A stretch of DNA of 64,000 bases from assembly GCF_000739695.1 (NCBI RefSeq), contig NZ_BBIO01000007.1, positions 1-64,000 on the forward strand. The letters run 5' to 3'. The position numbers and the translations under genes were made by a program. The notes beneath the pieces are model-generated. The model saw only the letters and a list, made by a program, of their open reading frames with translations. It did not search any database and was not told where the DNA came from. This stretch comes from Tepidicaulis marinus (lineage in GTDB: Bacteria; Pseudomonadota; Alphaproteobacteria; Parvibaculales; Parvibaculaceae). Every line of letters starts with the position of its first letter. Position 1 is the first letter of the stretch. Below, piece by piece: positions 30,371 through 49,708 of this stretch.

Positions 30371-30430
30371 CCCGGATCATAAACCAGTTGGAAATTTTGT
30401 GCACCGGTTTGCATGGCCGCAGGAGCCGCC

Positions 30431-30443
30431 TGACGCAACGTCA
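30431..30443. promoter_or_regulatory. small palindrome in the acyl-CoA ligase/enoyl-CoA hydratase divergon
   Basis: TGACGCAACGTCA has perfect 5-bp arms around CAA, about 67 bases before the hydratase ATG. The TGAC/GTCA half-sites resemble those at 11932 and 20228. It could be a TetR-type operator, but the short arms make chance occurrence possible. Confidence 0.35.
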
Positions 30444-30510
30444 AGGAGAAAAGAAGGCGGAAATTCCGGGCCGCCTCTTGTATGGTGCCCCCATCGATAG
30501 GGAGAAAACC

Positions 30511-31416: not shown

Positions 31417-31425
31417 GACGCCGGA

Positions 31426-33947: not shown

Positions 33948-34255
33948 CTTTGCCTCCCGGCGCCCTGTTTGTTGCCCGGTTTTGCCCGGCTTTTGCCGCC
34001 GCTGTTTCGCGCGCTGTCTCACGTCCTGTTTCAACGCGGCGCATTTTATTAACACCGGCACATGGCACGGTGCCGATTATATCGGTTCGATGTCATTTTA
34101 TCGCATTTTTCCGCCACTTCATGCGCGAATATGAATTTTACATGACATTCAGGAATCTTAAGATTTGTGCAATGGCAGGTGCGAAAGATAGCCGCAACTA
34201 AAATGCGTTTCCCGCGCGGGCAAGAACCTCGCGCTGTGAGGCAAGGGATGCGGCT
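33948..34255. other. divergent intergenic region, MFS pair / CBS-kinase
   Basis: The 308 bases hold no supported gene. The left part has three loose copies of a TTGCCCGG(T/C)TTT-like 10-mer (33972-34003). The right part is AT-rich and includes CCGAT-TAT-ATCGG near 34073 and the perfect 12-bp palindrome AATCTTAAGATT at 34154-34165. Both promoters must lie here, but I could not fix the hexamers. Confidence 0.5.
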
Positions 34256-35506
34256 ATGAGTGTGGAGTATGGACGGGGCGGCGCGTTGCACCCGGTGGCG
34301 CGGGATCTGGCGGTGCCGGTGGCGCCTGTGGATGTCACGGCGCCTTGCTCGGATATTTTCGACAGGCTGATGGAAGATGCCGCATTGATGCATATTCCCG
34401 TGCTCGATGGCGACGTCATTGCCGGGCTGGTCTCGCGCCAGCAATTCATGCTCACTTATGCCAGCCTTTACGGGCGCGATATTTTCGGGCGCAAGCCTAT
34501 TACCGAGCTCATGGACAGCGCCCCCATCCTGGTGGAAGCCGCGCTCGACTGCGAAGAGGTCAACCGCCGCCTGTTGCAGTTCGATCTGCAATCGTCCGAT
34601 GTGCAGGGTTTCATCGTGGTGGAAGAGGGGCGCTATCTCGGCGTGGCGGCGATCACCGGCCTTCTTGCCGTCATTGCCAATGTCATGACGCACCGCGCCG
34701 AAGAGCTGGAGCTGGCACGCCAGCGCGCGGAAGCGGCCAGCAAATCCAAAACCCAGTTTCTGGCCAGCATGTCCCATGAACTCAGAACGCCGCTCAACGC
34801 GGTGATCGGTTTTGCCGATCTCATCTGCAAGCAGACCTTCGGGCCGGTCACGCCGGCGAAATATCTCGAATATGTCGAAGACATTCACGCCAGCGGCTCG
34901 CATCTTCTGTCCATGATCAACGACATTCTGGACATGGCGAAAATCGAATCCGGCCGCTTCGGCCTGCGCGAGGATGTTTTCGATCCGGTGGACACCGCTA
35001 TCGATATTGTGCGCATGTTCATGCCCGAAATGAAAGAGCGCCAATTGCAATTCCGCATTTGCGGTATCCGCGGCGAAGACGTGCCTTATGTGCGCGCCGA
35101 TGAACGCCATATGCGCCAGATATTGCTCAATCTTCTCTCCAATGCGGTGAAATTCACACCGCCGGGCGGGCGGATCGATCTGTGCACGCTGCGGCATGAG
35201 AACGGCGATCTCTCCATCATCGTCGAAGATACGGGCGCGGGCATTCCCGCTCATATGGTTGAGCGCGTCTTCGAGCCTTTCGAGCAGGTGGAATGTTCTT
35301 TCACCCGCAAAACTTCCGGCACCGGCCTCGGTCTGCCGCTCGCCCGCGCCATGATGGAGGCCCATGACGGCACGCTGACGCTGACAAGCGAGGAAGGCAA
35401 AGGCACGCGCGTCATGGCGCGCCTGCCGGCCGAGCGGGTCGTGCAGCGCAAAGCGGCCGCCTTAAGGTCTGAAAACGGCAATTGGCCCGGCGTGCTTACG
35501 GCCTGA
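34256..35506 (+). CDS. CBS-domain histidine kinase, PleC/DivJ/PdhS-like
   Basis: 416 aa, soluble. Residues about 15-145 form a CBS-pair-like module (VTAPCSDIFDRLMEDAALMHIPVLDGDVIAGLVSRQQF, then ITELMDSAPILVE and GFIVVEEGRYLGVAAITGLL). A short coiled coil leads to HisKA with His174 in MSHELRTPLNAVIGFADLI, followed by FGPVTPAKYLEYVEDIHASGSHLLSMINDILDMAKIE, the DivK-interacting type. HATPase_c has the N box LLSNAVKF and GTGLGLPLARAM. No regulator gene is adjacent. CBS pairs usually bind adenine nucleotides, so energy or nucleotide sensing is inferred. It overlaps the next gene by 11 bases, tail to tail. Confidence 0.85.
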   Translation: MSVEYGRGGALHPVARDLAVPVAPVDVTAPCSDIFDRLMEDAALMHIPVLDGDVIAGLVSRQQFMLTYASLYGRDIFGRKPITELMDSAPILVEAALDCEEVNRRLLQFDLQSSDVQGFIVVEEGRYLGVAAITGLLAVIANVMTHRAEELELARQRAEAASKSKTQFLASMSHELRTPLNAVIGFADLICKQTFGPVTPAKYLEYVEDIHASGSHLLSMINDILDMAKIESGRFGLREDVFDPVDTAIDIVRMFMPEMKERQLQFRICGIRGEDVPYVRADERHMRQILLNLLSNAVKFTPPGGRIDLCTLRHENGDLSIIVEDTGAGIPAHMVERVFEPFEQVECSFTRKTSGTGLGLPLARAMMEAHDGTLTLTSEEGKGTRVMARLPAERVVQRKAAALRSENGNWPGVLTA

Positions 35507-36182
35507 GAAGGCGCATCATCTCATCATAGTGGTAAATGTTGACGGCGCCGTCCCCGTCCCCCGTCTCGGCGGCTTTCGCCATGGCGCGCGCCACTTCATC
35601 TGCCTTAATGGGCTTGTAGAGCCGCAAGGGGCCGAGAAGAAGCGGCGAAAGCAAGGGGGCGGCAAGCTGGCCGAGCCCTTCCCCGATCCGCTCTTCCTTG
35701 CGCGCGCCGATCAAAAGGCTCGGGCGGAACAGGCGCAAGCGCTCGAAGCGCAGATCGATCAGCCGTCTCTCCGTTTCCCCTTTGCAGTGCAGATAGAAAT
35801 TGGGGGAGTGCGCGTTCGCGCCGACGGAGGAGACGAGATTGAAACTCCGCGCGCCCGCGCCCTCGCAGGCCGCGGCAAAGGCGCTGTTGAAATCGCAGTC
35901 CACCCGGCGGAAGGCTTCCCGGCTCCCCGCCGTCTTGATCGTCGTGCCGAGGGCGGAAAAGCCTTCCGCGATCAATGTTTCAAGCTGGGCGACCGCTTCG
36001 CCGATGCGGTTGAAATCGGGCAGTTCGATGGCGCGCAGTTTCGGGTGCTGAAAGCCCGGCGCCTGGCGGGTGAAGGTGATCACCTGATCGAAGGCGGGCG
36101 AGGCAAGCAGCGCCTTGGTCAAAGCCCGGCCGATGAGCCCGGTGGCCCCGGCAATGGCGGCGATTTTCGGGTGCTGGCTCAT
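35496..36182 (-). CDS. NAD(P)-binding Rossmann protein, atypical SDR / HTATIP2-like
   Basis: 228 aa; AAGGA ribosome site before ATG 36182. The N-terminal nucleotide-binding motif AAIAGATGLIGRALTKALL matches GxxGxxG of extended and atypical SDRs. NLVSSVGANAHSPNFYLHCKGETERRLIDL provides the Ser and the YxxxK-like region (YLHCK), close to the NAD(P)H-binding HTATIP2/TIP30-like oxidoreductases and UPF-type epimerases. The fold is cytosolic and the substrate unknown. The 3' end overlaps the CBS-kinase gene tail to tail. Confidence 0.8.
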   Translation of the reverse strand: MSQHPKIAAIAGATGLIGRALTKALLASPAFDQVITFTRQAPGFQHPKLRAIELPDFNRIGEAVAQLETLIAEGFSALGTTIKTAGSREAFRRVDCDFNSAFAAACEGAGARSFNLVSSVGANAHSPNFYLHCKGETERRLIDLRFERLRLFRPSLLIGARKEERIGEGLGQLAAPLLSPLLLGPLRLYKPIKADEVARAMAKAAETGDGDGAVNIYHYDEMMRLLRP

Positions 36183-36228
36183 GCGTGTGGTTCCTTGCGC
36201 GTTGGCGGCAAGCCTAGCACGGATCGCT

Positions 36229-36654
36229 TTAGCAGGGATCGATAACGTTGAAGGCCTGCATTACAAGCTCGACGGCGGGTTTGTCGAGAAGCTCCGGGTG
36301 CCAGTCGGCGGCGCGGGAAATTTTCTTTTCCAAATCTTCCATATAGCCGACGCGGGGGACCTGCGCGCATTGCACATAGTCCTTTTCGTTATGAGGATGA
36401 ACTTTCTGTGTGCCGCGCCCTTTCTGCAGGGCATCGAGCGCGCCGAAATAGCCGTTGATATATTGCCGGCAATAGCGCGCCTTGCCGCTGAGCGGCGCCT
36501 GCGGGCGCTGCAAGCGGTGCTCGACGGCAAGCTGGCAGGCGGCGGCAAGGTCGCGGCCCGTTTCGATACGCGCGCGGGCCTGTGCCGGGGCTTGCGCAAG
36601 CCACATCAAAGCGGTTGCCGCAAGAAGCAAAGCAAAGAGACGTTCGTTTCGCAA
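36229..36654 (-). CDS. small secreted protein, Rap1a/Tai-like
   Basis: 141 aa starting at TTG 36654, which has GGAG 6 bases upstream. Signal peptide about 1-27 (LFALLLAATALMWLAQAPAQARA). The mature part has four cysteines and the segment YCRQYINGYFGALDAL, which resembles the C-x-x-Y-I-x-G pattern of the Rap1a/Tai family of secreted immunity-like proteins; the C-terminus (KPAVELVMQAFNVIDPC) also fits. The family includes type VI secretion immunity proteins, but most members, and probably this one, are simply periplasmic proteins of unknown role. It lies upstream of an SDR gene and downstream of two other small exported proteins. Confidence 0.6.
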   Translation of the reverse strand: MRNERLFALLLAATALMWLAQAPAQARARIETGRDLAAACQLAVEHRLQRPQAPLSGKARYCRQYINGYFGALDALQKGRGTQKVHPHNEKDYVQCAQVPRVGYMEDLEKKISRAADWHPELLDKPAVELVMQAFNVIDPC

Positions 36655-36682
36655 ACAGGACTCCTTTGCATCAAGAGCCGTT

Positions 36683-36952
36683 TCAGCTTTCCTCGCCGCC
36701 GGTCCAGCGCGCCCACAATTTGCTGGCGCAGGTGGACGTGTCGTATTGGCTGGTCACAAGGCGCATGGCGCGCACCGCGCTTTCCGGCGTCTCGCCGGGC
36801 TCGCTGCCGAGCGCGGCTTGCACCTCGCCGAAGGTTTCATCCGCCATGTCCTGGGCCAGCGCCCGGCAGGGCTCCAGCGTGCCGTAGCGGTAATACATCA
36901 GTCCGGCGGCAAGTCCGGCCAGCGCAACCAGAACGATCAGAAAAAGACGCAT
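36683..36952 (-). CDS. small single-helix membrane or exported protein
   Basis: 89 aa; GGAG precedes ATG 36952. A hydrophobic N-terminus (RLFLIVLVALAGLAAGLMYYRYG) is a signal anchor or uncleaved helix, followed by a 65-residue polar domain with two cysteines (EPCRALAQDM, TSTCASKLWARW) that could pair in the periplasm. I do not recognise the family. It is 28 bases from the next gene on the same strand. Confidence 0.62.
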   Translation of the reverse strand: MRLFLIVLVALAGLAAGLMYYRYGTLEPCRALAQDMADETFGEVQAALGSEPGETPESAVRAMRLVTSQYDTSTCASKLWARWTGGEES

Positions 36953-36994
36953 ATGTTTCTCCAGCCTGAAGATGCCGCGAGGATATCGGTGAAA

Positions 36995-37348
36995 TCAGAA
37001 ACGTCCCGCATCCCAGGGCTGGGCGCTGCCGCGTTCGTTGAACAGCTCGCCATTGTCCCCGCGCGTCGCGCCGCCGCAGGTGCCATAGCCGTTCTTCCAG
37101 CCTTCGCGGTAATTTTCCTCGCGCTCATAAAGCGCCTCGTTGCGGTGCACGGTCTTCTTCTCGAAGCCTTCGACGCGGGTATGGGCGGTGCGGCAGCCAT
37201 CCGAATAGCCGAGCTTATAAAGCGGGTCGTTCAGCACCTCCGGTTCGGGTTCGGAAATACAGCCGGCAAGGAGGACCGAAAACGTGAAGGCCGCCAGAAT
37301 GCCAGTAAACCGGTCAGTAAACTGGCCGCGCCGCATGGAATTGAACAT
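36995..37348 (-). CDS. small lipoprotein with tyrosine/glycine repeat motif
   Basis: 117 aa. Lipobox LLAGC (Cys about 30) after a hydrophobic signal. The mature segment has two similar halves, YKLGYSDGCRTAHTR and YREGWKNGYGTCGGA, each a Y-x-x-G-(Y/W) followed by a cysteine a few residues later, with ALYEREENY between. This arrangement occurs in many uncharacterised alphaproteobacterial lipoproteins. Third of a run of small exported proteins read leftward. No function can be assigned. Confidence 0.65.
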   Translation of the reverse strand: MFNSMRRGQFTDRFTGILAAFTFSVLLAGCISEPEPEVLNDPLYKLGYSDGCRTAHTRVEGFEKKTVHRNEALYEREENYREGWKNGYGTCGGATRGDNGELFNERGSAQPWDAGRF

Positions 37349-37547
37349 CGAGAACCCCTTTACCGTTGATCCCGGGTCCCCCCGGACCTGGAAAAGTTGC
37401 GGGCGAGCTTAACGGAATAAAACCGGCAGGCCAATTGATCTGCCAGTTGATCTCAAGGGCGGGGAGAGCCTTCTTCCGGCGTCTTTACGGGATTTTAGGG
37501 GCAGGAGGGGAAAATCAGGGTTAACCCGCTGGAAAGGATGATTTTTC

Positions 37548-38702
37548 TTGGCCGATTCGCCTGAAAGGCACGACCTGCCGCAAACCGCCGCTGGTATCGG
37601 GATCGGTACTCCCGGTGCGCAAGCCCGCGCAGGCGCAGCGCCCGCAGGCGGCGATCTTGCCTTGCTGCTGCGCCGTCTGGCGGATCTGGCCTTGATGCCG
37701 GCTGGGCGCATTCCCAAGCCCGAGCGCGATTTGCTCGATCTCAGCCTGTCCCATGCCTATGGCCGGCTCGATCTTGTCACCAAGCGCCGCCTTGCCGAGC
37801 GCACGGCGCAAATGGCCGAGCCATTGCCCCATCTCACCCGCCATCTGGCGCTCGACGTGCCGCCCGTTGCCGAGCCGCTATTGCTGGAAGGGGCGCATAT
37901 GCCCGTCTCGGTGCTGGTCGAAGCGGCGGCGGTTTCTGAAAAGCACCGTGCGCTTCTGGCGCTGCGCGAGGAAGTGCCGCCCGAGCTTGCTGCCGCCATC
38001 TTGCGTCATGACGATGTGGAGGCGGTCTATCTTCTCCTTGCCAATCCCGGCTCCGAGCTCTGCCCCCGTTCCATGGAAAATGCGGTGCGCGCGGCCAATG
38101 GGCGTGAAAGCTGGCACCGGCCTTTGGTGCTGCGCGTCGAGCTGAGCACCTGGACGGCGAGCCTGCTTTTCTGGTGGGTGAATGCGGAGCTGCGCCGCGA
38201 GATCGTGCGCCTGCATCTGCCCGATGCGGTGATGACCCATTCGACGATCGAAGACACGCTGGGCGAGGGGGTGGATACCGCCGCGCTGCCACAGCTCTTG
38301 CGCTTCTTCCGCCGCCTCCCGCCGCTCGGCATTGAGGCTCAGCGCGCCGTCCAGCAAGCGGCCATGGCCGAAAGCCCGGCAGCGGGCGTGCAGGCTTTAA
38401 GCGATCATTGCGGCCTGCGGGCGGAATTGCTCTCGCGTATTTTCGCCGATCCGGGCGGCGAGCCTGCCGCCGTTATTGCCCGCGCGCTGGGGCTAAGTTT
38501 GGAAGAAGCGGGGGCTCTGGCGCAAACGCTTGGCGGGCCGGGCAGGGAGGGCCTGCCGGAAAATGCCGCCGCGCTTTTCGAAGAACTGACGATCTCCCGC
38601 GCCACGGCGCTTTTGCAATTATGGGACGAGGCCATGGCCGCCGATATTGCCGAATTGCACAGCCAGGCGCTGCTCGGCACGGGCGAAGAGAGCGGCTTCT
38701 AA
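37548..38702 (+). CDS. DUF2336 domain protein
   Basis: 384 aa starting at TTG 37548, with a GGAAAGGA-like site upstream. All-helical, soluble, HEAT-like composition. After a proline/alanine-rich N-terminus (about 1-30) comes the DUF2336 region (about 45-260): repeated helical pairs with runs such as LTRHLALDVPPVAEPLLLEGAHMPVSVLVEAAAVSEKHRALLA and LPPELAAAILRHDDVEAVYLLLANPGSELC. The family is alphaproteobacterial and of unknown function. A second member lies at 56003. It ends convergently with the HTH antitoxin-like gene. Confidence 0.78.
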   Translation: MADSPERHDLPQTAAGIGIGTPGAQARAGAAPAGGDLALLLRRLADLALMPAGRIPKPERDLLDLSLSHAYGRLDLVTKRRLAERTAQMAEPLPHLTRHLALDVPPVAEPLLLEGAHMPVSVLVEAAAVSEKHRALLALREEVPPELAAAILRHDDVEAVYLLLANPGSELCPRSMENAVRAANGRESWHRPLVLRVELSTWTASLLFWWVNAELRREIVRLHLPDAVMTHSTIEDTLGEGVDTAALPQLLRFFRRLPPLGIEAQRAVQQAAMAESPAAGVQALSDHCGLRAELLSRIFADPGGEPAAVIARALGLSLEEAGALAQTLGGPGREGLPENAAALFEELTISRATALLQLWDEAMAADIAELHSQALLGTGEESGF

Positions 38703-38718
38703 GGAAATAAGAAACGGG

Positions 38719-39492
38719 CTATTCGGCGGCGTTCATTTGCGCGGGCGCGGGTATAATTCGGCGCTGGGCGGCTTTGGGCGGCTGTTTGAAACTGTCCAGC
38801 GCCACCACCCGCTCCAGATCGAGCCGGGCGTTCTGCGCCGTTTCGATAATATTGCCTTCCGCCTTTTCGATGAGCGCGCGGATTTCATCCACCCCGCGCA
38901 GCACTTCGCCGAGCCAGGGGCGCAACTCTTCATCCTCATCCATCAATTGCCGGGCTTCGCCCGCAAGGGATTCGGCAGCCTGACGCACCGCGCCGGTGGA
39001 AAAATCGGCCGAGCCGGTCACGAGCTGTTCGATCAGGCGGATTTGCGCGCGCACCCGGTTGATGCGCTGAGCATGTTCGCGCTCGGCCCGCTCGTCTTCA
39101 TCCATGACGGGGGCAAGATCGTCGAGCGAGACATCGAGGCAGGCGGCAATCGCCGTCATCGTGCGGAACGTGCCGTCCTTCTTACCCGTTTCGATTTCCG
39201 AAAGATAAGCCGGGCTGATCCCGGCGGCGCGGGCAAGCTCCACGGCTTTATGGCCCCGGTGCTCGCGCCAGACGCGGACAGGATTCTCCCCGCGCGCAAT
39301 GCGGTGCACGATATGGGCGGGGACGAGATCGGCGCGGAAATTTTCCTCAAGTGCGGAGCGGGCAGCGCGCAGGTCTTCGGCGTCGGCGGCAAGCTGTTTG
39401 AGGCGCTTATAATCGCCGATCGGCAGCACGGCATAGGCCGGTGTGCCGTCCGGGCCCTGAATGATCTGCGGAGAGTCTTTTTTCTTTGTCAT
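38719..39492 (-). CDS. XRE-family regulator, antitoxin-like, with long C-terminal extension
   Basis: 257 aa. Residues about 8-40 (IIQGPDGTPAYAVLPIGDYKRLKQL) resemble Phd/YefM antitoxin N-termini. An HTH_3 domain at about 75-130 contains VRVWREHRGHKAVELARAAGISPAYLSEIETGKKDGTFRTMTAIAACLDV. A further 125-residue charged, helical tail follows that ordinary antitoxins lack. It is 19 bases downstream of a RelE-like gene on the same strand, the toxin-first order of HigBA-like modules. DNA binding and autoregulation are expected. The tail is undescribed as far as I can tell. Confidence 0.78.
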   Translation of the reverse strand: MTKKKDSPQIIQGPDGTPAYAVLPIGDYKRLKQLAADAEDLRAARSALEENFRADLVPAHIVHRIARGENPVRVWREHRGHKAVELARAAGISPAYLSEIETGKKDGTFRTMTAIAACLDVSLDDLAPVMDEDERAEREHAQRINRVRAQIRLIEQLVTGSADFSTGAVRQAAESLAGEARQLMDEDEELRPWLGEVLRGVDEIRALIEKAEGNIIETAQNARLDLERVVALDSFKQPPKAAQRRIIPAPAQMNAAE

Positions 39493-39511
39493 TCGTCTCT
39501 TGCAATCGACG

Positions 39512-39793
39512 TTAGGCCGCTATGCGGCCGGTAATGGCCAGAACCGTTATCTGGGTTCCCTCGTCACGCAGGACAAGCCGGCGCCCGCCCGAAAGGGCAA
39601 TACCTTCATGGGTCTGGCCGAGCATCCGCCGTTCCTCGCGCGAGGGCAGGTCTTTCAGCACACGCATGACTTCCGAACGGGTCTTTTCATCGAGCCGGAC
39701 CATGGTGCGGAAGGCGGCGCGGCTGTACTGAATGCCGCTGCCGATGGCCATCCCGCTTTTTGCCTTGCTGCTTTTGTGTCCGGTATCCGTCAC
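39512..39793 (-). CDS. RelE/HigB-like putative toxin
   Basis: 93 aa from GTG 39793; ATG 39751 is an alternative start. The core YSRAAFRTMVRLDEKTRSEVMRVLKDLPSREERRMLG...ALSGGRRLVLRDEGTQITVLAITGRI fits the short alpha-alpha-beta-beta-beta layout of RelE/ParE-type toxins: helices first, then strands with arginines and a C-terminal LVLRDEG/ITVLAI pair. Overall similarity to characterised toxins is low and the catalytic residues cannot be named safely. The neighbouring antitoxin-like gene supports the call. It would be a ribosome-dependent RNase if of RelE type. Confidence 0.55.
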   Translation of the reverse strand: MTDTGHKSSKAKSGMAIGSGIQYSRAAFRTMVRLDEKTRSEVMRVLKDLPSREERRMLGQTHEGIALSGGRRLVLRDEGTQITVLAITGRIAA

Positions 39794-39945
39794 GCGTGTC
39801 CCCGCCGCTTCGGCTGCCTCTCAAGTATCTCAGCTTATACCGTGATTCGTGAAGAAACTGCTGAGCTTGCCTGCGGCAAGGGGGCGGGCGCATGATGCCC
39901 CGAAATGGCGGCCCTTGAGGCCCATGCGATCCGGGGAGGCAGATA

Positions 39946-40863
39946 ATGAGCGAGGAACTTAGACCTATCGACAAGCTGAAAGCGCTGGTGCGCCAAAGAT
40001 CGGCGGAGCGCGACAACCTGCCGCTCGAAGAACGCCGCCGCGCGATGGACGCGACGCTTGAAGTGTTCGGCGTGCCGGAAGGGGCTGAGGTCAACGAAAC
40101 GGAGCTTGCCGGTATAAAGACCGACCGGATCGTGCCCGCGGGTAAGACGCCTCAAGGCCGCTTTCTTTATTTTCATGGCGGCGGCTATGTCCTCGGGTCT
40201 CCGCGCTCGCACCGGCATATGACGGCGCTCTTGGCCCTGAAAACGGGCCGCGAGCTTGTCGTGCCCGATTACCGCCTGGCGCCGGAGCATGTGTTCCCGG
40301 CGGCGGTGGAAGACGGGCTCGCCGCTTACCGCGCGCTTCTGGAGGAAGGCCATGCGCCGGGCGACATTGTGCTGGGCGGGGATTCGGCGGGCGGCGGGCT
40401 AACGCTCGCCGTGCTTATCAAAGCGCGGGAGGAAGGCCTGCCCATGCCGGCAGCCGCCTGCCTCATCAGCCCCTGGGCGGACTTGAAATGCAATAGCGGC
40501 GCCTATGAAAGCCGGGCCGAGGCCGATCCCATGATCGACCAGTCCGGTATCGCCGAAATGGCGGCGCTTTATCTGGGCGGGGCTGCGGCGGGCGATCCGC
40601 TGGCCTCACCGCTTTTCGCCGATCTTACAGGCCTGCCCCCGCTCTTTATTCAGGTGGGCGATGCGGAAGTGCTGCTCGATGATTCCCGCGTCCTTGCCGA
40701 ACGGGCAAAGGCGGCAGGCGTCGATGCCATGCTCGATGTTTGGCCGGAGATGATCCATGTCTGGCACGCTTATTATCCGATGCTGCCGGAAGGCGGCCAA
40801 GCGCTGGGCGATATTGCTGCCTATCTGGCGAAAATTGCGGGCGGCAAACGCTTGAGCGCGTAG
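39946..40863 (+). CDS. alpha/beta hydrolase, hormone-sensitive lipase family esterase
   Basis: 305 aa; ATG 39946 follows GGGAGG. HSL-family marks: oxyanion motif HGGGYVLG (77-84), nucleophile elbow GGDSAGGG with Ser147, VPDYRLAPEHVFPAAVEDGLAAYRALL between them, then a catalytic Asp in the GDAEVLLDD region and His in MIHVWHAYY. An N-terminal helical cap (1-45) covers the active site. It hydrolyses short or medium acyl esters in the cytosol. Monocistronic by context; it precedes ompW by 119 bases that hold the ompW regulatory region. Confidence 0.88.
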   Translation: MSEELRPIDKLKALVRQRSAERDNLPLEERRRAMDATLEVFGVPEGAEVNETELAGIKTDRIVPAGKTPQGRFLYFHGGGYVLGSPRSHRHMTALLALKTGRELVVPDYRLAPEHVFPAAVEDGLAAYRALLEEGHAPGDIVLGGDSAGGGLTLAVLIKAREEGLPMPAAACLISPWADLKCNSGAYESRAEADPMIDQSGIAEMAALYLGGAAAGDPLASPLFADLTGLPPLFIQVGDAEVLLDDSRVLAERAKAAGVDAMLDVWPEMIHVWHAYYPMLPEGGQALGDIAAYLAKIAGGKRLSA

Positions 40864-40908
40864 AAACCCGGCAGCGGAACACTTTGTCGCAGGCTGTAAG
40901 CCTTCCGA

Positions 40909-40922
40909 TTGATCGGTATCAA
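40909..40922 (+). promoter_or_regulatory. FNR/FixK (Anr) box upstream of ompW
   Basis: TTGATCGGTATCAA is a perfect match to the TTGAT-N4-ATCAA consensus for CRP/FNR-family oxygen regulators. Its centre is 67 bases upstream of the ompW ATG, so a start near 40957 would put it at -41.5, the class II activator position. A weak CATTTT lies at 40945-40950. Confidence 0.75.
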
Positions 40923-40936
40923 GGACCGGCCGGTCC
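40923..40936. promoter_or_regulatory. 14-bp perfect palindrome abutting the FNR box
   Basis: GGACCGGCCGGTCC is perfectly self-complementary and starts immediately after the FNR box. It would overlap the spacer of an FNR-activated promoter, so it may bind a second regulator or form an RNA hairpin. Its GC-rich make-up makes chance more likely than for the FNR box. Confidence 0.4.
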
Positions 40937-40982
40937 CTTGCGCGCATTTTCCTTGCAGACAGTTAAACCTGCGAGGGATGAG

Positions 40983-41639
40983 ATGACGAACCTTAAAAAA
41001 TATACCGCACTTCCTGCCGCGCTGCTTGGCGCGGCCGCGATGACGTTTTCCGCAATTGCCGTACCGGCCATGGCTGCCGAGGGTGAAAAAGACAGTCCCT
41101 GGCTTGTCCGCGTGCGCGGCTTGGCCGTGGTGCCGGATGAAGGTGCCGATGTGAACCCGCTGGGCGGCACGGTGGAGATCGACGAGGACTATGTCCCCGA
41201 AGTCGATATCTCTTATTTCTTCACCGACAACATCGCCGCCGAACTCATCCTGGCGACGACCCGCCACGATGTGACGTGGAAAGGCGCGGGCAGCCTGGAC
41301 CTCGGCAAAGTCAGCCTTCTGCCGCCGACCCTGACGCTGCAATATCACTTCATGCCGAAAGAAACCTACCGTCCTTATGTAGGGGCGGGCGTCAACTACA
41401 CGATCTTCTACAATGAAGATGCGCCGGGCGGTGCTATCACCAGCGCCGACTATGACAATGCTTTCGGCTGGGCGCTGCAGGCGGGCATGGATATCGATAT
41501 GGGCAACAAATGGGTTGCCAATATCGACGTGAAGAAGATCTTCCTGAATACCGATGTCAGCCTGAACGGCGGCGCGGTGACGGCGGATGTCGATATCGAT
41601 CCCTGGATCTTCGGCCTCGGCGTCGGCTACCGCTTCTAA
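40983..41639 (+). CDS. ompW: OmpW-family outer membrane protein
   Basis: 218 aa from ATG 40983 with GAGGGATGAG upstream; longer frames overlap the esterase gene and are not coding. Signal peptide about 1-31 (TALPAALLGAAAMTFSAIAVPAMAA). The mature protein is an eight-strand barrel: VRVRGLAVVPDEGADVNPLGGTVEIDEDYVPEVDISYFFTDNIAAELILATTRHDV, then LPPTLTLQYHFMPKETYRPYVGAGVNYTIFY, and a final strand ending GVGYRF with the C-terminal phenylalanine needed for BAM assembly. OmpW forms a narrow channel for small hydrophobic molecules. The FNR box upstream matches known oxygen control of ompW in enteric bacteria. Confidence 0.9.
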   Translation: MTNLKKYTALPAALLGAAAMTFSAIAVPAMAAEGEKDSPWLVRVRGLAVVPDEGADVNPLGGTVEIDEDYVPEVDISYFFTDNIAAELILATTRHDVTWKGAGSLDLGKVSLLPPTLTLQYHFMPKETYRPYVGAGVNYTIFYNEDAPGGAITSADYDNAFGWALQAGMDIDMGNKWVANIDVKKIFLNTDVSLNGGAVTADVDIDPWIFGLGVGYRF

Positions 41640-41645
41640 GACAAG

Positions 41646-41665
41646 GGCGCAGCCTTAGCTGCGCC
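41646..41665. terminator. possible hairpin terminator between ompW and the Rieske gene
   Basis: GGCGCAGC and GCTGCGCC form an 8-bp stem with loop CTTA, 7 bases after the ompW stop. No T run follows, so termination efficiency is doubtful. The TAA stop of the Rieske gene is partly in the loop. Confidence 0.5.
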
Positions 41666-42710
41666 AGCGTAAAGTCACGGGCTGGACGGGGTTTTCGAAA
41701 TCCCGTCCGGCCTCTTTTGCATCCGCCCATTCTTTTTTCAGCCGGTGATACCACTTGGCCTGAACATCCGAATCGTTGATCAGCATGAGCCGCGGTTCGA
41801 ATTTCAGCCCCTTCTGCTGCAAGTTCACCATATCCCCGTCCTGCTTCAGAAAGGCGCGGATGAAACGCCGCGCCACGGGTTTGAGCAGGCTGAGCGCGGG
41901 CATGGTCCAGTAAAAGCTCTGGGTGATTTCGGTGGTGTTCTCATCGACCGGCGTCACCGCCGTAAAGCCGACGACGCGGTGGCGGCCTGCCTGAATGTTT
42001 TCGATGCGCACGCCGGGCAGCTGGAAGGTGATTTCGGTCACCGGCGCGCCGCCGAGGATCTTATAGGCGAAGGAATTCTTGGAAGGGCGGTGCGCGACCA
42101 TGGAAAAGCCCTGCGGGGCGGGGGCGAAGTCTTTCGCCTTTTCATGGATCGAGCCGCCCGTGCGCCACCACCAGGAGCGGTGGACGAAGGGCCCATGCGC
42201 CGGGTCCATCAGCCCGATCACCGCATGGTCGATATGGCAGGCAAACGTCATCGCCTCGCGCAAATTGGGCGCGGCGCCCTCGAAACCCGGCATGAGAGGC
42301 GGGGCGGTTTCAGGTTCCGCCTCCGCGCGGCTCTCCGCGGCCATATAAATCCAGATATTGCCCTGCACCTCGCGCACCGGATAGCGGCGCACCTTGATGC
42401 GGCCGACATCCATGTCCTGACCCGGCACGAGCGAGGGGATTTCAAGGCACGCGCCGTCCGTGCCGAATTTCCAGCCGTGATAAGGGCATTCCAGCGCCGC
42501 TTTGCCGCAGCCGCTCTTTTCTTTGGCATAAAGCTGGCCGGAGGAGAGCGGCACGCCCCTATGCGGGCAAATGTCGCGCAGCGCGAAGGGCGCGCCTTCC
42601 GCGTCCCGGCCGATCACCACCGGTTCGCCGAGCAAGACTTTGTGATGCATGTCGCCTTTTTTCAGGCTTTCCCCGGGCAGCGCGAAATACCAGATATCTT
42701 TTAGGAACAT
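41655..42710 (-). CDS. Rieske [2Fe-2S] aromatic-ring-type oxygenase subunit
   Basis: 351 aa. N-terminal Rieske domain with Cys48 and His50 in DICPHRGVP and Cys75 and His78 in ECPYHGWKF. The C-terminal catalytic domain (about 130-350) carries a putative mononuclear iron site near HIDHAVIGLMDPAHGPFVH. Layout and length fit vanillate O-demethylase (VanA) and related monooxygenase subunits that need a separate reductase, not encoded here. The start ATG 42710 lies beside a 17-bp duplicated leader that doubles the AAGAGA ribosome site. The stop lies inside a GC hairpin shared with the convergent ompW end. Confidence 0.85.
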   Translation of the reverse strand: MFLKDIWYFALPGESLKKGDMHHKVLLGEPVVIGRDAEGAPFALRDICPHRGVPLSSGQLYAKEKSGCGKAALECPYHGWKFGTDGACLEIPSLVPGQDMDVGRIKVRRYPVREVQGNIWIYMAAESRAEAEPETAPPLMPGFEGAAPNLREAMTFACHIDHAVIGLMDPAHGPFVHRSWWWRTGGSIHEKAKDFAPAPQGFSMVAHRPSKNSFAYKILGGAPVTEITFQLPGVRIENIQAGRHRVVGFTAVTPVDENTTEITQSFYWTMPALSLLKPVARRFIRAFLKQDGDMVNLQQKGLKFEPRLMLINDSDVQAKWYHRLKKEWADAKEAGRDFENPVQPVTLRWRS

Positions 42711-42713
42711 GTT

Positions 42714-42747
42714 CTTGTTTCTCTTGGGGCCTTGTTTCTCTTGGGGC
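42714..42747. repeat. 17-bp perfect tandem duplication containing a ribosome site
   Basis: Two identical 17-bp units (42714-42730 and 42731-42747) lie directly upstream of the Rieske-oxygenase ATG. On the coding strand each contains CCCAAGAGAAACAAG, so the AAGAGA ribosome site is present twice. Confidence 0.92.
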
Positions 42748-43187
42748 GGGGCCGGTCCGCCGCACGCGTCATGGAACGGGCGTCATTATGCTGTGCAGCG
42801 GCCTTTATAGAAAGGCGCCGATGGCCGCAGGGCGCGCAAAGGCGCGCAAACCGGGGAATCGCAGATGCGCCCCGCCGGTTCAAGTGCCTTGCGCCATTAA
42901 TTGAAGCGGCGTGATAAATAGCCCGCGCAAATGAATGATAGAGAAAAAATAGGGAAATTTTCCCTGGTTTCGGCCGTATTGGTGAGCATGAGCATTACAA
43001 ATCAAGCGGGACCGATTTATATAATCACTGCCCGTACCGGCCAGGATGGCCAAGAACTAGATTTCGCCGCGTAGGCTTTACTTTTTTGGAACGTGAGTGC
43101 GTGTGAAAACGTTTGTCTTCGTGTGTGAGTATTAGCACTTAGACAGGATACAGAGTGTAATTATATCGCAAATTCTTTCGTTATACG

Positions 43188-43216
43188 TTGCCGGTCAATT
43201 TGAAAATTGATAGAAT
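43188..43216 (+). promoter_or_regulatory. predicted mucR promoter with palindromic operator in its spacer
   Basis: TTGCCG (43188-43193) and TAGAAT (43211-43216) are 17 bases apart. The perfect inverted repeat TCAATTT-GA-AAATTGA (43195-43210) fills that spacer. The first transcribed base would be near 43223, giving an 80-base leader to the ATG at 43304. The design is that of a repressor-blocked, probably autoregulated promoter. Confidence 0.6.
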
Positions 43217-43303
43217 TATCCTAAATAGTCTGTTTTGGGAAGGGGCTAAAGCATACCCGAAATATGGACTTGGACCGGACGCATGTCGGGCGGAGACGAG
43301 CGC

Positions 43304-43732
43304 ATGACTGAAAAAGCGGATCTCATCGACATGACCGCGGGGATTGTGTCGGCTTATGTGACGAATAATTCGCTCCCGCTATCCGATGTGCCGGCCTTTA
43401 TTCATCAGGTCTATAAGGCCTTGGAAGCGGCTATGAGCGATCTGCCGGCCTCCGGCGAGGCCTTGCCGGTGCCGGCCGTATCGGTGGAAGAATCCGTCAC
43501 ACCCGATTATTTGATCTGCCTGGAAGACGGGAAGCGCTTCAAATCTCTCAAGCGCCATATCCGCACCCATTACAACCTCTCGCCTGAAGAATACCGGACG
43601 AAATGGGGCCTGCCGGCGGATTATCCGATGGTCGCGCCCAATTACGCCAAGGCCCGCTCCAAACTCGCCAAACGCATGGGGCTCGGGCAGAAATCCGTTG
43701 GCCGCCCGCGCGGCGCGCGCCGCTCGGGCTAG
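43304..43732 (+). CDS. mucR: MucR/Ros-family transcriptional regulator
   Basis: 142 aa from ATG 43304, with GGAG 9 bases upstream; ATG 43283 adds seven residues. The N-terminal half (MTAGIVSAYVTNNSLPLSDVPAFIHQVYKAL) is the oligomerisation helix pair. The C-terminal DNA-binding domain DYLICLEDGKRFKSLKRHIRTHYNLSPEEYRTKWGLPADYPMVAPNYAKARSKLAKRMGLG is the prokaryotic zinc-finger fold. The second cysteine of the Ros finger is Asp here (CLED), as in other MucR-branch proteins, so zinc would be held by Cys-Asp-His-His. MucR proteins act as H-NS-like repressors of AT-rich genes and usually repress themselves, which fits the upstream palindrome. Confidence 0.92.
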   Translation: MTEKADLIDMTAGIVSAYVTNNSLPLSDVPAFIHQVYKALEAAMSDLPASGEALPVPAVSVEESVTPDYLICLEDGKRFKSLKRHIRTHYNLSPEEYRTKWGLPADYPMVAPNYAKARSKLAKRMGLGQKSVGRPRGARRSG

Positions 43733-43869
43733 TCATCGCTCGCATACCGGCGCCTCATTTTCCCGCTATTCGTCAACTATCTCAGAGACTTAAAGCGCAT
43801 CTGTGACTTTTTAGATTCTTGCTATGCGCGTGTCTTCTCTTCATAGTTAACGAATCGGAGGAGAGCGCG

Positions 43870-44406
43870 GTGCAGGAAGCACAGTTCACGCAGTCGCAGG
43901 ATGGATACAGGGGCTTTCGCTCCCAGTTACCGCTGCCTGAATTGCAGAAGCTCTTCGATTATTGGCTGGCGCGCCACCCGGACGGCGCGCTTCCCAGCCG
44001 CGCCGACATCGACCCGGTTCATATCCCCTCTTTGTTGCCCGGCATTTGCCTGATGGAAATCAGCCATCCCGATCTCAAGGCCAAAGTCCGCCTGGCCGGC
44101 ACGCGCCTGCGTGAGGGGTACGGCATGGAGCTGACGGGCCGGATGCTCGATGAGGCCCTGCCGCCCGGCGAGGCGCGGTATTGGCAGGCGGTGGCGCACC
44201 GCGTGGCCGTGCAGCGCAAGCCCGCTTATGGCGTCACGCGCAATGTCGGGGAGGACCGGCCGACCTTTCATCAGGTCTGGCTGCGCTTGCCGCTGGCCGG
44301 CGAAAATGGCGAAGTGGCGATGATGATCGGCTATGACGCCTTCCTGCTTTCCAAAAAGGCGGATGCGCTGGTCAAGGATCCCGGTAAGATCGTCCAGATC
44401 GCTTGA
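43870..44406 (+). CDS. PAS_5-type (DUF1788-like) regulatory protein
   Basis: 178 aa from GTG 43870, preceded by CGGAGGAGAG; the frame open to 43819 is not needed. A single PAS-like domain of the alphaproteobacterial PF07310 type: LFDYWLARHPDGALPSRADIDPVHIPSLLPGICLMEI, then VRLAGTRLREGYGMELTGRMLDEALPPGEARYW and a C-terminal strand pair. These proteins carry a sensory fold alone, with no output domain, and are numerous in stalked and budding alphaproteobacteria. Cytosolic; the ligand is unknown. Confidence 0.82.
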   Translation: MQEAQFTQSQDGYRGFRSQLPLPELQKLFDYWLARHPDGALPSRADIDPVHIPSLLPGICLMEISHPDLKAKVRLAGTRLREGYGMELTGRMLDEALPPGEARYWQAVAHRVAVQRKPAYGVTRNVGEDRPTFHQVWLRLPLAGENGEVAMMIGYDAFLLSKKADALVKDPGKIVQIA

Positions 44407-44496
44407 AACCTGGCTCTCCCGCCCGCACGCTTGCAAGCATGGCGGCGGGGAGCCCGTGTCCTTGGGGACCGGGGGGCTCGCAATGGGGATATTGTC

Positions 44497-45024
44497 ATGA
44501 TGTATCGGCGCGGCGCCATTAAAGGCCGTTCTTTTTCTTTTACCGCTTTCTTGCTGCTGGTCTTACTGGCCTCTGCTTTCGCTCTTTCAGGACCGGGCGT
44601 AGTGCCTGCCGCCCATGCCGCTGCCGCCCATGCCTCCGTCGCACAGGCGCGCATCGAAGAAGGGGTGAAGGAAGTTGGCCCGCGCGATGCCGCCCGCTTC
44701 AAAGTCGATGCTCCGGCAGATCAGGCAAGCGAGTTTGCCGGCCGCTGCACGCTGAGCGCTGTCGGCGGCTCTGTCAATGTGGCGGTGGACGGTGTGCATT
44801 ACGTGCCGCTATCGGCGCCCGCCATCGGCGATGTGCTGACGCTGCAGCCCGGCGAAAGCCGTACCTATGAAATGACCGGCACCTTTGCGCCGAATGAGCG
44901 CGGCGATGCCGAGATCGCTTTCATCTTCAATGGCTCGCCTGCCGGGTTCTGCTTTCCCGGCCAGCAATGCGCCAAGGCGGCGGAAGGCGCAACCGCGCTG
45001 CGGGCCGAGTGCACGAACAGGTAA
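44497..45024 (+). CDS. secreted hypothetical protein with cysteine pairs
   Basis: 175 aa from ATG 44497 (a second ATG follows at once), with GGGGA upstream. A long signal peptide (hydrophobic SFTAFLLLVLLASAFAL, alanine-rich cleavage region near 45). The mature domain, about 125 residues, is beta-rich by pattern: GRCTLSAVGGSVNVAVDGVHYVPLSAPAIGDVLTLQPGESRTYEMTGTF, ending in NGSPAGFCFPGQQCAK. Three or four cysteines could form disulfides. I do not recognise a family. It is 9 bases from the large membrane-anchored gene that follows, so they likely form one operon. Confidence 0.65.
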   Translation: MMYRRGAIKGRSFSFTAFLLLVLLASAFALSGPGVVPAAHAAAAHASVAQARIEEGVKEVGPRDAARFKVDAPADQASEFAGRCTLSAVGGSVNVAVDGVHYVPLSAPAIGDVLTLQPGESRTYEMTGTFAPNERGDAEIAFIFNGSPAGFCFPGQQCAKAAEGATALRAECTNR

Positions 45025-47016: not shown

Positions 47017-47583
47017 TCAAAGCGCCCGCACGGCCAGCACCGGCCGGGCCGCCCAGGAAAGTGCTGCCGCCCGAGAGGCTTCTCCATCGCCAAGCGGCAC
47101 GAGAAGATAAGGCGCATCGCTTTCAGGCATGGGCACGAGCCGGGCAAGGCGCACCCGGCCATCTTCAAGCCCGGCAAGGCAGAGACGGTTGTGAAGCTGG
47201 CCGGTCTGAAAGGAGGGCAGGCGGTCGGCGATCAGCACTTCGCCCGCTTTAAAGCCGCCTTGATCCGCGCCGATCAACACCTGCACCGGATCGGCAAGCG
47301 GCACCTCGCCGAGTAATCCCGCAATATCGGGCAGCGTGCCCGGCACCGCCCAGCCATCGGCGCGGATATGGCCGAGCGCCTTCATGGCGGGGCGGGGGCG
47401 CTCCTCGATCAACTCCCCCGTCCGCGCGCCCAGCGCCTTGGCAATCCGCGTCAGCCAATCGGCGGAAAGGCGGATATCGGCGCTTTCCAGCCGGGAGATG
47501 GTGGCAACGCTCGTCTCCAGCCGGCGCGCCAGTTCCGCCTGGGTCATGCCCTGTGCCTTGCGCAACTGGCGGATGTTGTTCAT
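47017..47583 (-). CDS. XRE-family regulator with C-terminal S24/beta-like domain
   Basis: 188 aa. HTH_3 at 1-60 (IRQLRKAQGMTQAELARRLETSVATISRLESADIRLSADWLTRIAKAL). The C-terminal part (about 85-185: VQVLIGADQGGFKAGEVLIADRLPSFQTGQLHNRLCLAGLEDGRVRLARLVPMPE) has the GD-hinge and strand order seen in LexA/CI-type peptidase-like domains, but the Ser/Lys catalytic dyad is not evident. It is divergent from the DnaA-like gene across 231 bases and may control it. A possible operator pair is AACTTA (47686) and TAAGTT (47715). Confidence 0.8.
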   Translation of the reverse strand: MNNIRQLRKAQGMTQAELARRLETSVATISRLESADIRLSADWLTRIAKALGARTGELIEERPRPAMKALGHIRADGWAVPGTLPDIAGLLGEVPLADPVQVLIGADQGGFKAGEVLIADRLPSFQTGQLHNRLCLAGLEDGRVRLARLVPMPESDAPYLLVPLGDGEASRAAALSWAARPVLAVRAL

Positions 47584-47685
47584 GGCCTTGTCCTCATCTG
47601 TCTGCCCCGCGCCTGTCCGCCCTGCCGGCCAGCGCGCCCTGTCTGGCCGGCCCGGCCTTTCCGCAGGTGTTTGGGAAATTTGCGT

Positions 47686-47720
47686 AACTTATCCCCGCTG
47701 CCTTGCGCACTACGTAAGTT
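47686..47720. promoter_or_regulatory. inverted AACTTA/TAAGTT pair in the XRE/DnaA-like divergon
   Basis: The 6-mers at 47686-47691 and 47715-47720 face each other in similar contexts (GCGTAACTTA and ACGTAAGTTT), 29 bases apart. It is a candidate site for the adjacent XRE repressor; the arms are short. Confidence 0.35.
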
Positions 47721-47814
47721 TTACCTTGGAGTGCGCTCATGTTCCCTATATGTTCTTTATCGGCAATAGGGGGAATGAGCAACCGGTTTTCCAGGGTAGG
47801 AGGTCTGAACGCGT

Positions 47815-48363
47815 ATGGAACCTGTCAAAAACCAAGTCAGAAAAGCCAATCGTCCCGCCATTTCCCCATCCATTTCCCCATCCATTTCCCCGTCGGTATT
47901 GTCACCGGCCAGGCCGCCATCCAGGCCGCCCTTCCTGATGACCTCTGCCCGCCATGCTCAGCGCGAGCGGGCCTTTCGCCTGGCGCAATTGACCAAGCAG
48001 GCGGTTTCTCATGCCTGGGCCGTGCCCGAGGATGAATTGCGCGCCGCCACAAGGCGCAGGGCCCCTGTGGCCACGGCGCGGCAGATCGCCATGTATCTGT
48101 GCCATGTGGTGTTCGGGCTGAGCTTTGCGGAAGTGGGCCGCCAGTTTTACCGGGACCGCACCACTGTCGCTTATGCCTGTGAGTGTATCGAGGACCGGCG
48201 CGACGATGCCGAGTTCGATCTGATGCTGGACAGGATCGAGCTGGCGGTGCGCGCCGTCTCCGCGCTTGGTGAGCGGCCGGTGCCGCAAAGCAGGCGCCCG
48301 CGCGCCGCCTGCATGCCCGCCTTTGCCGGTACTGTGCAAAAGGGAGGGTCGCATCATGCCTGA
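47815..48363 (+). CDS. free-standing DnaA domain IV (DNA-binding) protein
   Basis: 182 aa. Only the DnaA C-terminal helix-turn-helix is present: ATARQIAMYLCHVVFGLSFAEVGRQFYRDRTTVAYACECIEDRRDD at about 85-130 aligns with the DnaA signature in which RDHTTV contacts the DnaA box; here it reads RDRTTV. There is no AAA+ domain. The start region has an SISP repeat from 12-bp duplications; ATG 47815 has AGGAGG 13 bases upstream, rather far, and ATG 47938 is an alternative. It overlaps the DUF6456 gene by 8 bases. Such proteins could compete for DnaA boxes or act as transcription factors; this is inference. Confidence 0.82.
   Translation: MEPVKNQVRKANRPAISPSISPSISPSVLSPARPPSRPPFLMTSARHAQRERAFRLAQLTKQAVSHAWAVPEDELRAATRRRAPVATARQIAMYLCHVVFGLSFAEVGRQFYRDRTTVAYACECIEDRRDDAEFDLMLDRIELAVRAVSALGERPVPQSRRPRAACMPAFAGTVQKGGSHHA
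47858..47891 (+). repeat. 12-bp tandem repeat encoding SISP
   Basis: CCATTTCCCCAT is repeated at 47858-47869 and 47870-47881, with a partial third copy to 47891. In frame it gives SISPSISPSISP near the N-terminus of the DnaA-like protein. Confidence 0.9.
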
Positions 48364-49270
48364 GCCTCATACCCGCGCTCCTTCCGGCGCTCGTTCTGGT
48401 TTCCCTTCGCAGGCGCAAGCGCGCCCGGCGATTGCCCGGGGCGAGCTGGAACGGGAGGCAAGGCGCATCTTCCGCCGTTTGCAGGAAGAAGGCGCCCATC
48501 TCATGCCGCTTGAAAAAGACGAGGCAGGGCTCTTCGTTGCCCGCAACCGGTGGGCGAAGCCTGTCATGCGGGTCCCGCTGCGCCTGCTTGCCGCTTTTTT
48601 GGCGGAAGACTGGCTGAGCGCGAGCGCTGCCCATGCCAGTTCCGCTCATGGAAGAGCGGGCGGGCCGGAGAATGAAGGCCCGCCGCTTGCCCTTTACCGG
48701 CTCTCCGAGGCAGGTCTTGCCTGGTACCGGCGCAGCCTCGCGCCGGAAGATGGCTTTCGCGCCCAGCATCAATTGCGGGTGCGCGAAAAACTCACCGGTG
48801 CGGCGCAAACGGAGGCGCCCGTCACGCTCAATGCCGGAGAAAGCCCGCTTGGCTGGCTGCGCCGGCGGCGGGGACGGGGCGGCGCGCCCTTTATCGATGA
48901 GGCGCAATATGAAGCGGGCGAGAAGCTGCGGCGGGATTTCACGCTGGCAGCGCTCACCCCTTCCGTCACGCGGGACTGGTCCATGGCACTGCCGAGCGAG
49001 GCGCGGCAGAAAGGCTCTTACCGCCAGGGCGAGATCAGCGATAGGGCGCTCGAAGCGCGGCGGCGTTTTGAAGCCGCGCTGGCGGAAGCCGGGCCCGGCC
49101 TTTCGGATCTTCTCATCGAAGTGTGCTGCCATTTGCAGGGGCTGGAAAGCGCCGAGCGCGGCTTCGGCTGGCCCCAGCGCAGCGGCAAAGTGGTGCTGAG
49201 GCTGGCGCTTGAAAGGCTGGCCCTCCATTACGGATTGCGCAGAAAAGAAGGAAGCGGGAAAAGGCTCTAG
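48356..49270 (+). CDS. DUF6456 domain protein
   Basis: 304 aa from ATG 48356, with GGGAGG upstream. The DUF6456 region occupies about 150-290: ESPLGWLRRRRGRGGAPFIDEAQYEAGEKLRRDFTLAALTPSVTRDWS, then GLSDLLIEVCCHLQGLESAERGFGWPQRSGKVVLRLALERLALHYGL. The last segment has the look of a DNA-binding helix bundle. The N-terminal 120 residues contain a possible winged fold (LEREARRIFRRLQEEGAHLMPLEKDEAGLF). It is translationally coupled to the DnaA-IV protein, so a joint role in DNA binding is likely but undefined. The downstream SufE gene is convergent, 6 bases away. Confidence 0.78.
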   Translation: MPEPHTRAPSGARSGFPSQAQARPAIARGELEREARRIFRRLQEEGAHLMPLEKDEAGLFVARNRWAKPVMRVPLRLLAAFLAEDWLSASAAHASSAHGRAGGPENEGPPLALYRLSEAGLAWYRRSLAPEDGFRAQHQLRVREKLTGAAQTEAPVTLNAGESPLGWLRRRRGRGGAPFIDEAQYEAGEKLRRDFTLAALTPSVTRDWSMALPSEARQKGSYRQGEISDRALEARRRFEAALAEAGPGLSDLLIEVCCHLQGLESAERGFGWPQRSGKVVLRLALERLALHYGLRRKEGSGKRL

Positions 49271-49276: not shown

Positions 49277-49708
49277 TTAGGCGGGCTGGGCGCCGGCAAT
49301 GGCCGCCGTTGCGTCCGCCCGCGCCCGGTTCACCATGGAATAAAGCCCGTTGGAGCGCTGCGGGCTCAAATGCTCATCGAGGCCGAGTTTGGAGAACACC
49401 TCTTTGGCATCGATGGCCAGAATTTCTTCCGGGGATTTGCCCGAATACATTTCCAGAAGAATGGCGATCAGGCCTTTGACGATATGCGCATCGGAATCGC
49501 CGCGGAAGAGCACCTTGGTCTTGCCTTGCTCTTCGGCGATTTCCGAAACGAGCCAGACCTGGCTGACACAGCCTTGCACTTTCGTCTCGCTATTGTGCTC
49601 GGCCTCGGAAAGCGGCGCGAGCCCCTTGCCGAGTTCGATGACATAGCGGTAGCGGTCCTCCCAATCGTCGAGGAACGCAAAATCTTCCAAAAGGCTTTCA
49701 ATGCTCAT
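49277..49708 (-). CDS. sufE: SufE-family cysteine desulfuration protein
   Basis: 143 aa from ATG 49708; the frame open to 49933 is not coding upstream. SufE receives persulfide sulfur from the desulfurase SufS for iron-sulfur cluster assembly. The acceptor cysteine is Cys47 in ETKVQGCVSQVWLV. Other family marks are EDFAFLDDWEDRYRYVIELG at the start and FRGDSDAHIVKGLIAILLEMYSGKSPEEIL. No suf genes adjoin, as is common for sufE in this group. The C-terminus LSPQRSNGLYSMVNRAR is typical. Confidence 0.92.
   Translation of the reverse strand: MSIESLLEDFAFLDDWEDRYRYVIELGKGLAPLSEAEHNSETKVQGCVSQVWLVSEIAEEQGKTKVLFRGDSDAHIVKGLIAILLEMYSGKSPEEILAIDAKEVFSKLGLDEHLSPQRSNGLYSMVNRARADATAAIAGAQPA

Follow-up and report, generated by a model that had tools for sequence, protein, structure and literature searches.

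Gene transfer agents (GTAs) are tamed viruses with which bacteria ship DNA to each other. The closest described control circuit to the one discussed here is that of Caulobacter, in which RogA silences gafYZ, and GafY, IHF and the anti-termination activity of GafZ turn on a suicidal GTA (PMC9632790, PMC11150451). The GTA promoter is co-activated by GafY and IHF, with GafZ as the anti-terminator (PMC11150451); GafY forms a complex with GafZ and binds RpoD, and GafZ travels with RNA polymerase (PMC9632790, PMC11150451). Caulobacter RogA is described as LexA-like with its catalytic residues absent, no GafYZ motif could be predicted in that study (PMC9632790), and CdxB is a further repressor of gafYZ (PMC13236601). 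In Rhodobacter the GTA activator GafA is a single protein with a DnaA-like N-terminus, homologues of which are annotated as DUF6456, and in most cases a small DnaA-like gene comes before the 'gafA' of Hyphomicrobiales, sufE lies downstream and a mucR or helix-turn-helix (HTH) gene upstream (PMC9638019). Here we describe a three-gene locus of Tepidicaulis marinus (Alphaproteobacteria; Parvibaculaceae) that very probably is the RogA-GafY-GafZ switch of a GTA of the Rhodobacter capsulatus (RcGTA) type, in a genome from which the structural cluster has been deleted and in a lineage that most likely turned GTA-negative only recently. The locus lies in the window, by which we mean the whole stretch of DNA analysed: the first 64,000 nucleotides, forward strand, of contig NZ_BBIO01000007.1 (C40 in our numbering) of RefSeq assembly GCF_000739695.1.

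The locus and the missing structural cluster

The locus consists of a gene for an XRE-type protein and, divergent from it, two overlapping genes that correspond to gafY and gafZ. The sole Pfam match of the GafY protein up to E 1 is Bac_DnaA_C (PF08299), over the cut-off at residues 62-124; the protein carries the RDRTTV helix, has no AAA+ match, and in a PDB sequence search matched the solved DnaA chains 3pvp, 1l8q and 1j1v across the DnaA-type domain. Directly after this DnaA-domain-IV-only gene comes gafZ, whose product matches DUF6456 (PF20057) over the cut-off, which is the arrangement of a GafYZ pair; PF20057 also has matches in the Caulobacter vibrioides control genome, and the PDB sequence search with GafZ gave nothing credible (best E 0.67). 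With sufE downstream and an HTH regulator upstream, the locus reproduces the synteny of the Hyphomicrobiales gafA loci.

An RcGTA-type structural cluster is not found in the same genome. Profile searches with GTA_TIM, HK97 capsid, DUF2460 and portal models gave no match on any contig of this assembly (99.98% complete); all four models match in the Caulobacter control, and a congener (G001) has all four. The congener is colinear at about 91% identity except that positions 30307-44739 of its compared stretch (about 14.4 kb), encoding terminase, portal, capsid, connector, tail tube, DUF2460 and GTA_TIM proteins, are missing here. The deletion lies at contig position 71,011 or thereabouts, 7 kb past the end of the window, and its scar (C40:71005-71018; L038:11005-11018) joins residues 1-61 of the small terminase (terS) to the last (DUF2793) tail gene, the junction running through a short GC-rich similarity. 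Upstream of the terS stub, 168 of 175 bases are identical to the congener. With the cluster absent, it is less probable that the locus drives a GTA at present; the assignment of its genes to their families is unaffected. A second difference downstream of the scar, a 1.7 kb stretch with a 447-aa open reading frame in the congener, is also absent from the stretches of G002-G004, and we read it as an insertion in the congener rather than a further loss. That frame (L043:5389-6732) stands just after the last GTA gene, has no Pfam or PADLOC match, and is found in none of the compared stretches of this genome (G000), G002, G003 and G004.

Across the family the genes travel together: gafY, gafZ and sufE are present in 34 of 34 same-family loci, a co-occurrence above chance, and a divergent RogA-type gene in 31. 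These loci come from 40 family genomes, of which G008 and G037 (no DUF6456 match) and G006, G021, G027 and G034 (partial or contig-end matches) were left out. DUF6456 was found in 38 of the 40 genomes, GTA_TIM in 33 and both in 32; for the 25 genomes listed as at least 95% complete, the figures for DUF6456 and GTA_TIM are 25 and 23. Where both are present, they lie on one contig and the same strand in 19 genomes, with the GTA 30-47 kb downstream, and on different contigs in 13. Besides this genome and G020, GTA_TIM is missing from G006 and G037, which have DUF2460, and from G030, which has the capsid, and because of these matches we count all three as incomplete assemblies; it is also missing from G034 and G035, which are only 79 and 88% complete (the capsid search covered G035, not G034).

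As far as can be read from its sequence, the switch shows no sign of decay. The XRE protein and GafZ are 91% and 94% identical to those of the congener, and no excess of substitutions was observed: the ratio of non-synonymous to synonymous substitution rates against the congener is 0.197 for rogA, 0.167 for gafY and 0.100 for gafZ, compared with a median of 0.100 for the 53 open-reading-frame pairs kept (six of them poor, at 27-43% identity). Thus rogA and gafY evolve somewhat faster than the regional median gene, and gafZ evolves at the median. Among sites that differ between the congeners and on which half or more of the family concur, 0 carry the derived residue here and 3 in the congener; with so few informative sites, the lack of decay is weak evidence of selection.

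From the work on Caulobacter and Rhodobacter we infer how such a switch would operate. In the off state the XRE repressor would bind the shared intergenic region and keep gafYZ silent. Once repression is lifted, GafY, a DnaA-type HTH protein without ATPase, would bind the GTA promoter and recruit RNA polymerase, and GafZ would join the elongating polymerase and carry it through terminators across the cluster. The deletion, whose ends fall within the small-terminase gene and within the last tail gene, removed the structural cluster and left behind the upstream promoter region, the terS stub and the intact switch, the region before the stub being the only cluster target recognised; particles are presumably not made. 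That the switch persists may mean that little time has passed since the loss, or that GafYZ retains other targets.

A first-pass annotation of this DNA had already recognised the protein reduced to the DnaA-box-binding HTH and its overlap with the DUF6456 gene, and its view that the trio works as a single regulatory switch, repressed by the XRE protein, appears right by homology. It erred in calling the role undescribed, as gafY, gafZ, rogA and the fused homologue gafA have been published as GTA regulators (PMC9632790, PMC11150451, PMC9638019). The divergent XRE protein is indeed present, with HTH_31 (E 5.4e-13) and HTH_3 (E 8.4e-13) matches at its N-terminus in Pfam, and its gene sits just outside the interval 47584-49270 to which the trio had been assigned; the LexA-like C-terminal domain ascribed to it was not confirmed. 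No S24/LexA model was matched in Pfam up to E 1 or, among the matches listed (25 of 28), in NCBIfam; PDB sequence matches were HTH chains only, covering only residues 2-61; and AlphaFold models built from 2 and 3 sequences had a mean pLDDT (predicted local distance difference test) of about 40, the one for the XRE protein (2 sequences, 40.5) being unusable. What speaks for such a domain is the published description of Caulobacter RogA, together with a family motif, GxYxxGD(I/L)LIADR, that loosely resembles the GDSMxPxxxxGD region of S24 repressors with the serine absent; judged by the alignment, the XRE protein probably has no catalytic S24 serine.

Features are collected in Table 1. An alternative gafY start is ATG 47938; residues from the upstream start are kept in the N-terminus of the congener protein. 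The overlap of gafY and gafZ measures 8 bases (ATGCCTGA, 48356-48363), the likely gafZ start being ATG 48356 rather than TTG 48266. The 5' part of gafY contains tandem CCATTTCCCCAT units (window 47858-47893; SISPSISPS), which do not occur as such in the congener and are possibly length-variable.

Table 1. Features of the gafYZ locus, in window coordinates
Feature	Position	Strand	Length and basis
rogA-type XRE repressor gene, divergent from gafY	47017..47583	-	188 aa; HTH_31/HTH_3, family synteny
Candidate GafY (or repressor) recognition element TTATCCCC, DnaA-box-like 8-mer	47689..47696	+	family conservation; putative function
Dyad TTGCG-CACTA-CGTAA, candidate XRE repressor operator	47703..47717	.	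family conservation; putative function
gafY (hdaB), DnaA domain IV-only activator	47815..48363	+	182 aa; PF08299 E 7.7e-17
gafZ, DUF6456 protein	48356..49270	+	304 aa; PF20057 E 3.4e-51, scored on the TTG-start reading
sufE, convergent neighbour and synteny marker of gafYZ loci	49277..49705	-	143 aa from MSIESLL; PF02657 E 6.1e-47, scored on a longer frame

Candidate sites in the intergenic region

Of 31 family members, 24 have an exact TTATCCCC in the rogA-gafY gap (dinucleotide-shuffle mean 0.13, maximum 2/31). After it comes a dyad, TTAC-N7-GTAA, which 20 of the 31 gaps contain with no more than one mismatch (shuffle mean 1.73, maximum 7; exact in 4/31); these statistics ignore the kinship of the family members. 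The dyad TTACG-N5-CGTAA is perfect in the gap of the congener. The 8-mer resembles a DnaA box (TTATCCACA), and since it is both DnaA-box-like and conserved in the gap, GafY may read a DnaA-box-like site. This suggests TTATCCCC as a candidate GafY box and the dyad as a candidate repressor operator.

As a universal GafY box the full 8-mer had to be rejected, being absent from the GTA promoter regions of this genome, the congener, G003, G007, G010, G016, G004 and G012. A shorter form, TATCCCC, is present in 9 of 17 GTA promoter regions (shuffle mean 0.21, maximum 2), and in all nine a -35-like TTGxCx hexamer stands two bases after it. Twelve regions were left out of this count: that of G009, whose terS match runs from residue 60, and others in which terS was not recovered or recovered only in part, namely those of G019 (two loci), G022, G023, G028, G031, G039, G042, G043, G092 and G095; L121 (G038) also stands outside it. 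In the genus g3 (G003, G007, G010, G016) the gafYZ gap contains a TTGC...GCAA palindrome that is found again upstream of the GTA cluster, in the region from which TATCCCC is missing; this suggests a lineage-specific change of site. The TTATCCCC/TATCCCC element and the TTAC-N7-GTAA dyad provide concrete binding-site candidates.

Switch genes without GTA markers in other genomes

A second genome of the family, G020 (100% complete), has kept rogA-gafY-gafZ-sufE; its GTA is interrupted within terL, and none of the GTA_TIM, DUF2460, capsid and portal models is matched. Its large terminase (L127:1613-2683) breaks off after about three quarters, and two copies of GATATCCCCAATTGGCA lie upstream.

Beyond the family, we surveyed a sample of 389 genomes from the class, all with a completeness of 95% or more, the DUF6456 and GTA_TIM surveys, of 389 genomes each, being assumed to cover the same genomes. 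DUF6456 was matched in 76, and after 32 weaker matches (E above 1e-30) had been dropped, 44 strong ones (E<1e-30) remained; GTA_TIM was found in 41 and both in 27 (G172 with only a partial GTA_TIM match). Among the 17 with DUF6456 and no GTA_TIM, DUF2460 is present in five (G050, G164, G237, G297, G402). The other 12 lack both DUF2460 and the capsid; three of these have partial portal matches (G060, G167 and G424, in the last at 13 kb from gafZ), and none of the four markers is matched in nine: G000, G056, G149, G170, G240, G290, G300, G353 and G357. Six of the nine (G000, G056, G149, G170, G240, G300) have separate gafY and gafZ genes; G290 and G353 have a RogA-type gene and gafZ with no GafY match beside gafZ, and in G357 the sole GafY match is weak (E 8e-4) and falls in the GafZ frame itself. 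G149, from another family, is a single contig that carries the trio and sufE, and its congeners G225 and G288 have GTA_TIM. In the family f18 (G056, G170, G240 and G300; three genera, genomes of 1.7-1.9 Mb) gafY-gafZ-sufE is kept with no RogA match nearby; GafZ identity is 31-44% between genera and 88% for the close pair, and there are no f18 genomes among the 41 with GTA_TIM.

Several observations weigh against reading the locus as the switch of a deleted GTA. The Caulobacter RogA site GGAA-N4-TTCC was found in 0 of 33 gaps by exact search, and since this operator is absent and Caulobacter rogA does not stand beside gafYZ, the label RogA rests here on position, the HTH and family conservation; that the XRE protein represses gafYZ is probable by analogy. 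This genome's own GTA promoter region lacks the candidate GafY box TATCCCC. Of the 41 class-sample genomes with GTA_TIM, 14 have no strong DUF6456 match, and the control G288 has GTA_TIM and no portal match, so that the markers can miss and their absence is not proof that a GTA is absent. Lastly, the assembly is a draft of 46 contigs and the only genome in which the deletion is seen.

The alternative that survives best is that GafYZ serves some purpose apart from the GTA (at other promoters, in DNA uptake or in stationary-phase genes) and was kept by selection after the GTA was lost, which we consider unlikely. The nine marker-less genomes among 44 speak for it, as do the losses in G000, G020 and G149, which look independent, and above all the f18 genomes, the main support, whose GafZ proteins are too diverged between genera for a shared recent loss. 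Caulobacter GafY is moreover enriched upstream of 9 of the 10 most up-regulated loci, and GafZ only in the GTA cluster (PMC9632790). However, f18 genomes lacking DUF6456 may hide among the 293 match-less genomes outside the list, so that the family may have retained the genes only patchily; a GTA too diverged for the models may also be present in f18, or each of its genera may have lost the GTA separately, and G290, G353 and G357 lack a clear GafY beside gafZ. We know of no function of GafYZ other than in GTA production. The loss in this genome, besides, looks recent, and retention therefore needs no selection here. A specific form of the idea, which we hold to be doubtful, is that in G000, G020, G149 and the four f18 genomes selection keeps GafYZ because GafY would drive promoters that benefit survivors (recipient or stress functions), with no suicidal output.

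An assembly error, or a variant confined to one strain of a species that still makes a GTA, is an improbable explanation of the deletion: the draft state, the single genome and the position of the scar in GC-rich sequence would allow it, but the scar is internal to a contig of 167.5 kb whose first 120 kb contain no Ns, and the four markers are absent from all contigs of a nearly complete genome. GafY was formerly named HdaB, and a role in replication was proposed for the Caulobacter homologue (Frandi & Collier 2020, as cited by PMC9632790). A replication regulator of this kind, a DnaA-domain-IV protein that binds DnaA boxes or oriC and modulates DnaA, or in the first-pass annotation a switch that titrates DnaA boxes, is very improbable here: beyond the domain and the conserved DnaA-box-like 8-mer it found no support (no DnaA-box or oriC search was made), gafY travels with gafZ and sufE, and gafZ with GTA_TIM, across the family, the trio lies on contig C40 and the full-length DnaA candidate (a 564-aa frame) on C46, and the copy-number and division effects were ascribed in later work to GTA production (PMC9632790). 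Contig C46 also encodes a second DnaA-domain-IV-only protein (180 aa; C46:100207-100404; L003:1171-1713, minus strand) beside MuB and Mu Gam homologues, neighbours that place it probably in a Mu-like prophage.

We therefore return to the deleted-GTA switch, which read plainly means a lineage that has recently become GTA-negative, as is expected of 'cheaters' (PMC10883770), and that has not yet lost its switch. GTA systems have been pseudogenised or lost in several alphaproteobacterial lineages, for which 'cheater' lineages have been proposed; in the main text of that source 'gafA' has 0 occurrences, and we found in it no discussion of activator genes kept after GTA loss (PMC10883770). Nor did the literature searched, main texts without supplements, yield a report of gafYZ retained after such a loss. 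A published count across 1,331 genomes found RogA in 819 and GafZ in 759, 494 of the latter with an adjacent GafY (PMC9632790), and the pattern of a switch without a GTA may already be visible in those data. The three genes themselves are accounted for; the possible novelty is that a switch has become naturally separated from its output and that the deletion scar can still be read, and the surveys give signs that this separation happened in other lineages too. The puzzle is that the switch of a suicidal programme outlives the programme, which points to either a recent loss in a 'cheater' lineage or a second function. Genomes with the switch and without the GTA are natural GTA-deletion strains with their activators still in place, and they make it testable whether GTA loss gives rise to 'cheater' lineages (PMC10883770) and whether GafYZ has a role besides particle building.

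Comparison with the described systems

With RogA, GafY and GafZ of Caulobacter crescentus (CCNA_00080, CCNA_01111 and CCNA_01112) the locus shares the split activator, a DnaA-domain-IV protein followed by a homologue of the GafA C-terminus, and an XRE-type repressor, the latter likened by its published description. It differs in that the XRE gene is adjacent and divergent here, whereas Caulobacter rogA lies apart from gafYZ, in the absence of the operator known from Caulobacter, and in the deletion of the GTA cluster. HdaB is the same Caulobacter gene as gafY, proposed for replication and later reinterpreted as a GTA activator. DUF6456, the DnaA-like upstream gene, sufE and the HTH gene are common to this locus and to Rhodobacter capsulatus GafA or the split gafA loci of Hyphomicrobiales (PMC9638019); unlike in Rhodobacter capsulatus, the activator is encoded by two genes rather than one, in a genome without an RcGTA marker. 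With the GTA-loss lineages (PMC10883770) this genome shares the loss, and here the activator genes are kept.

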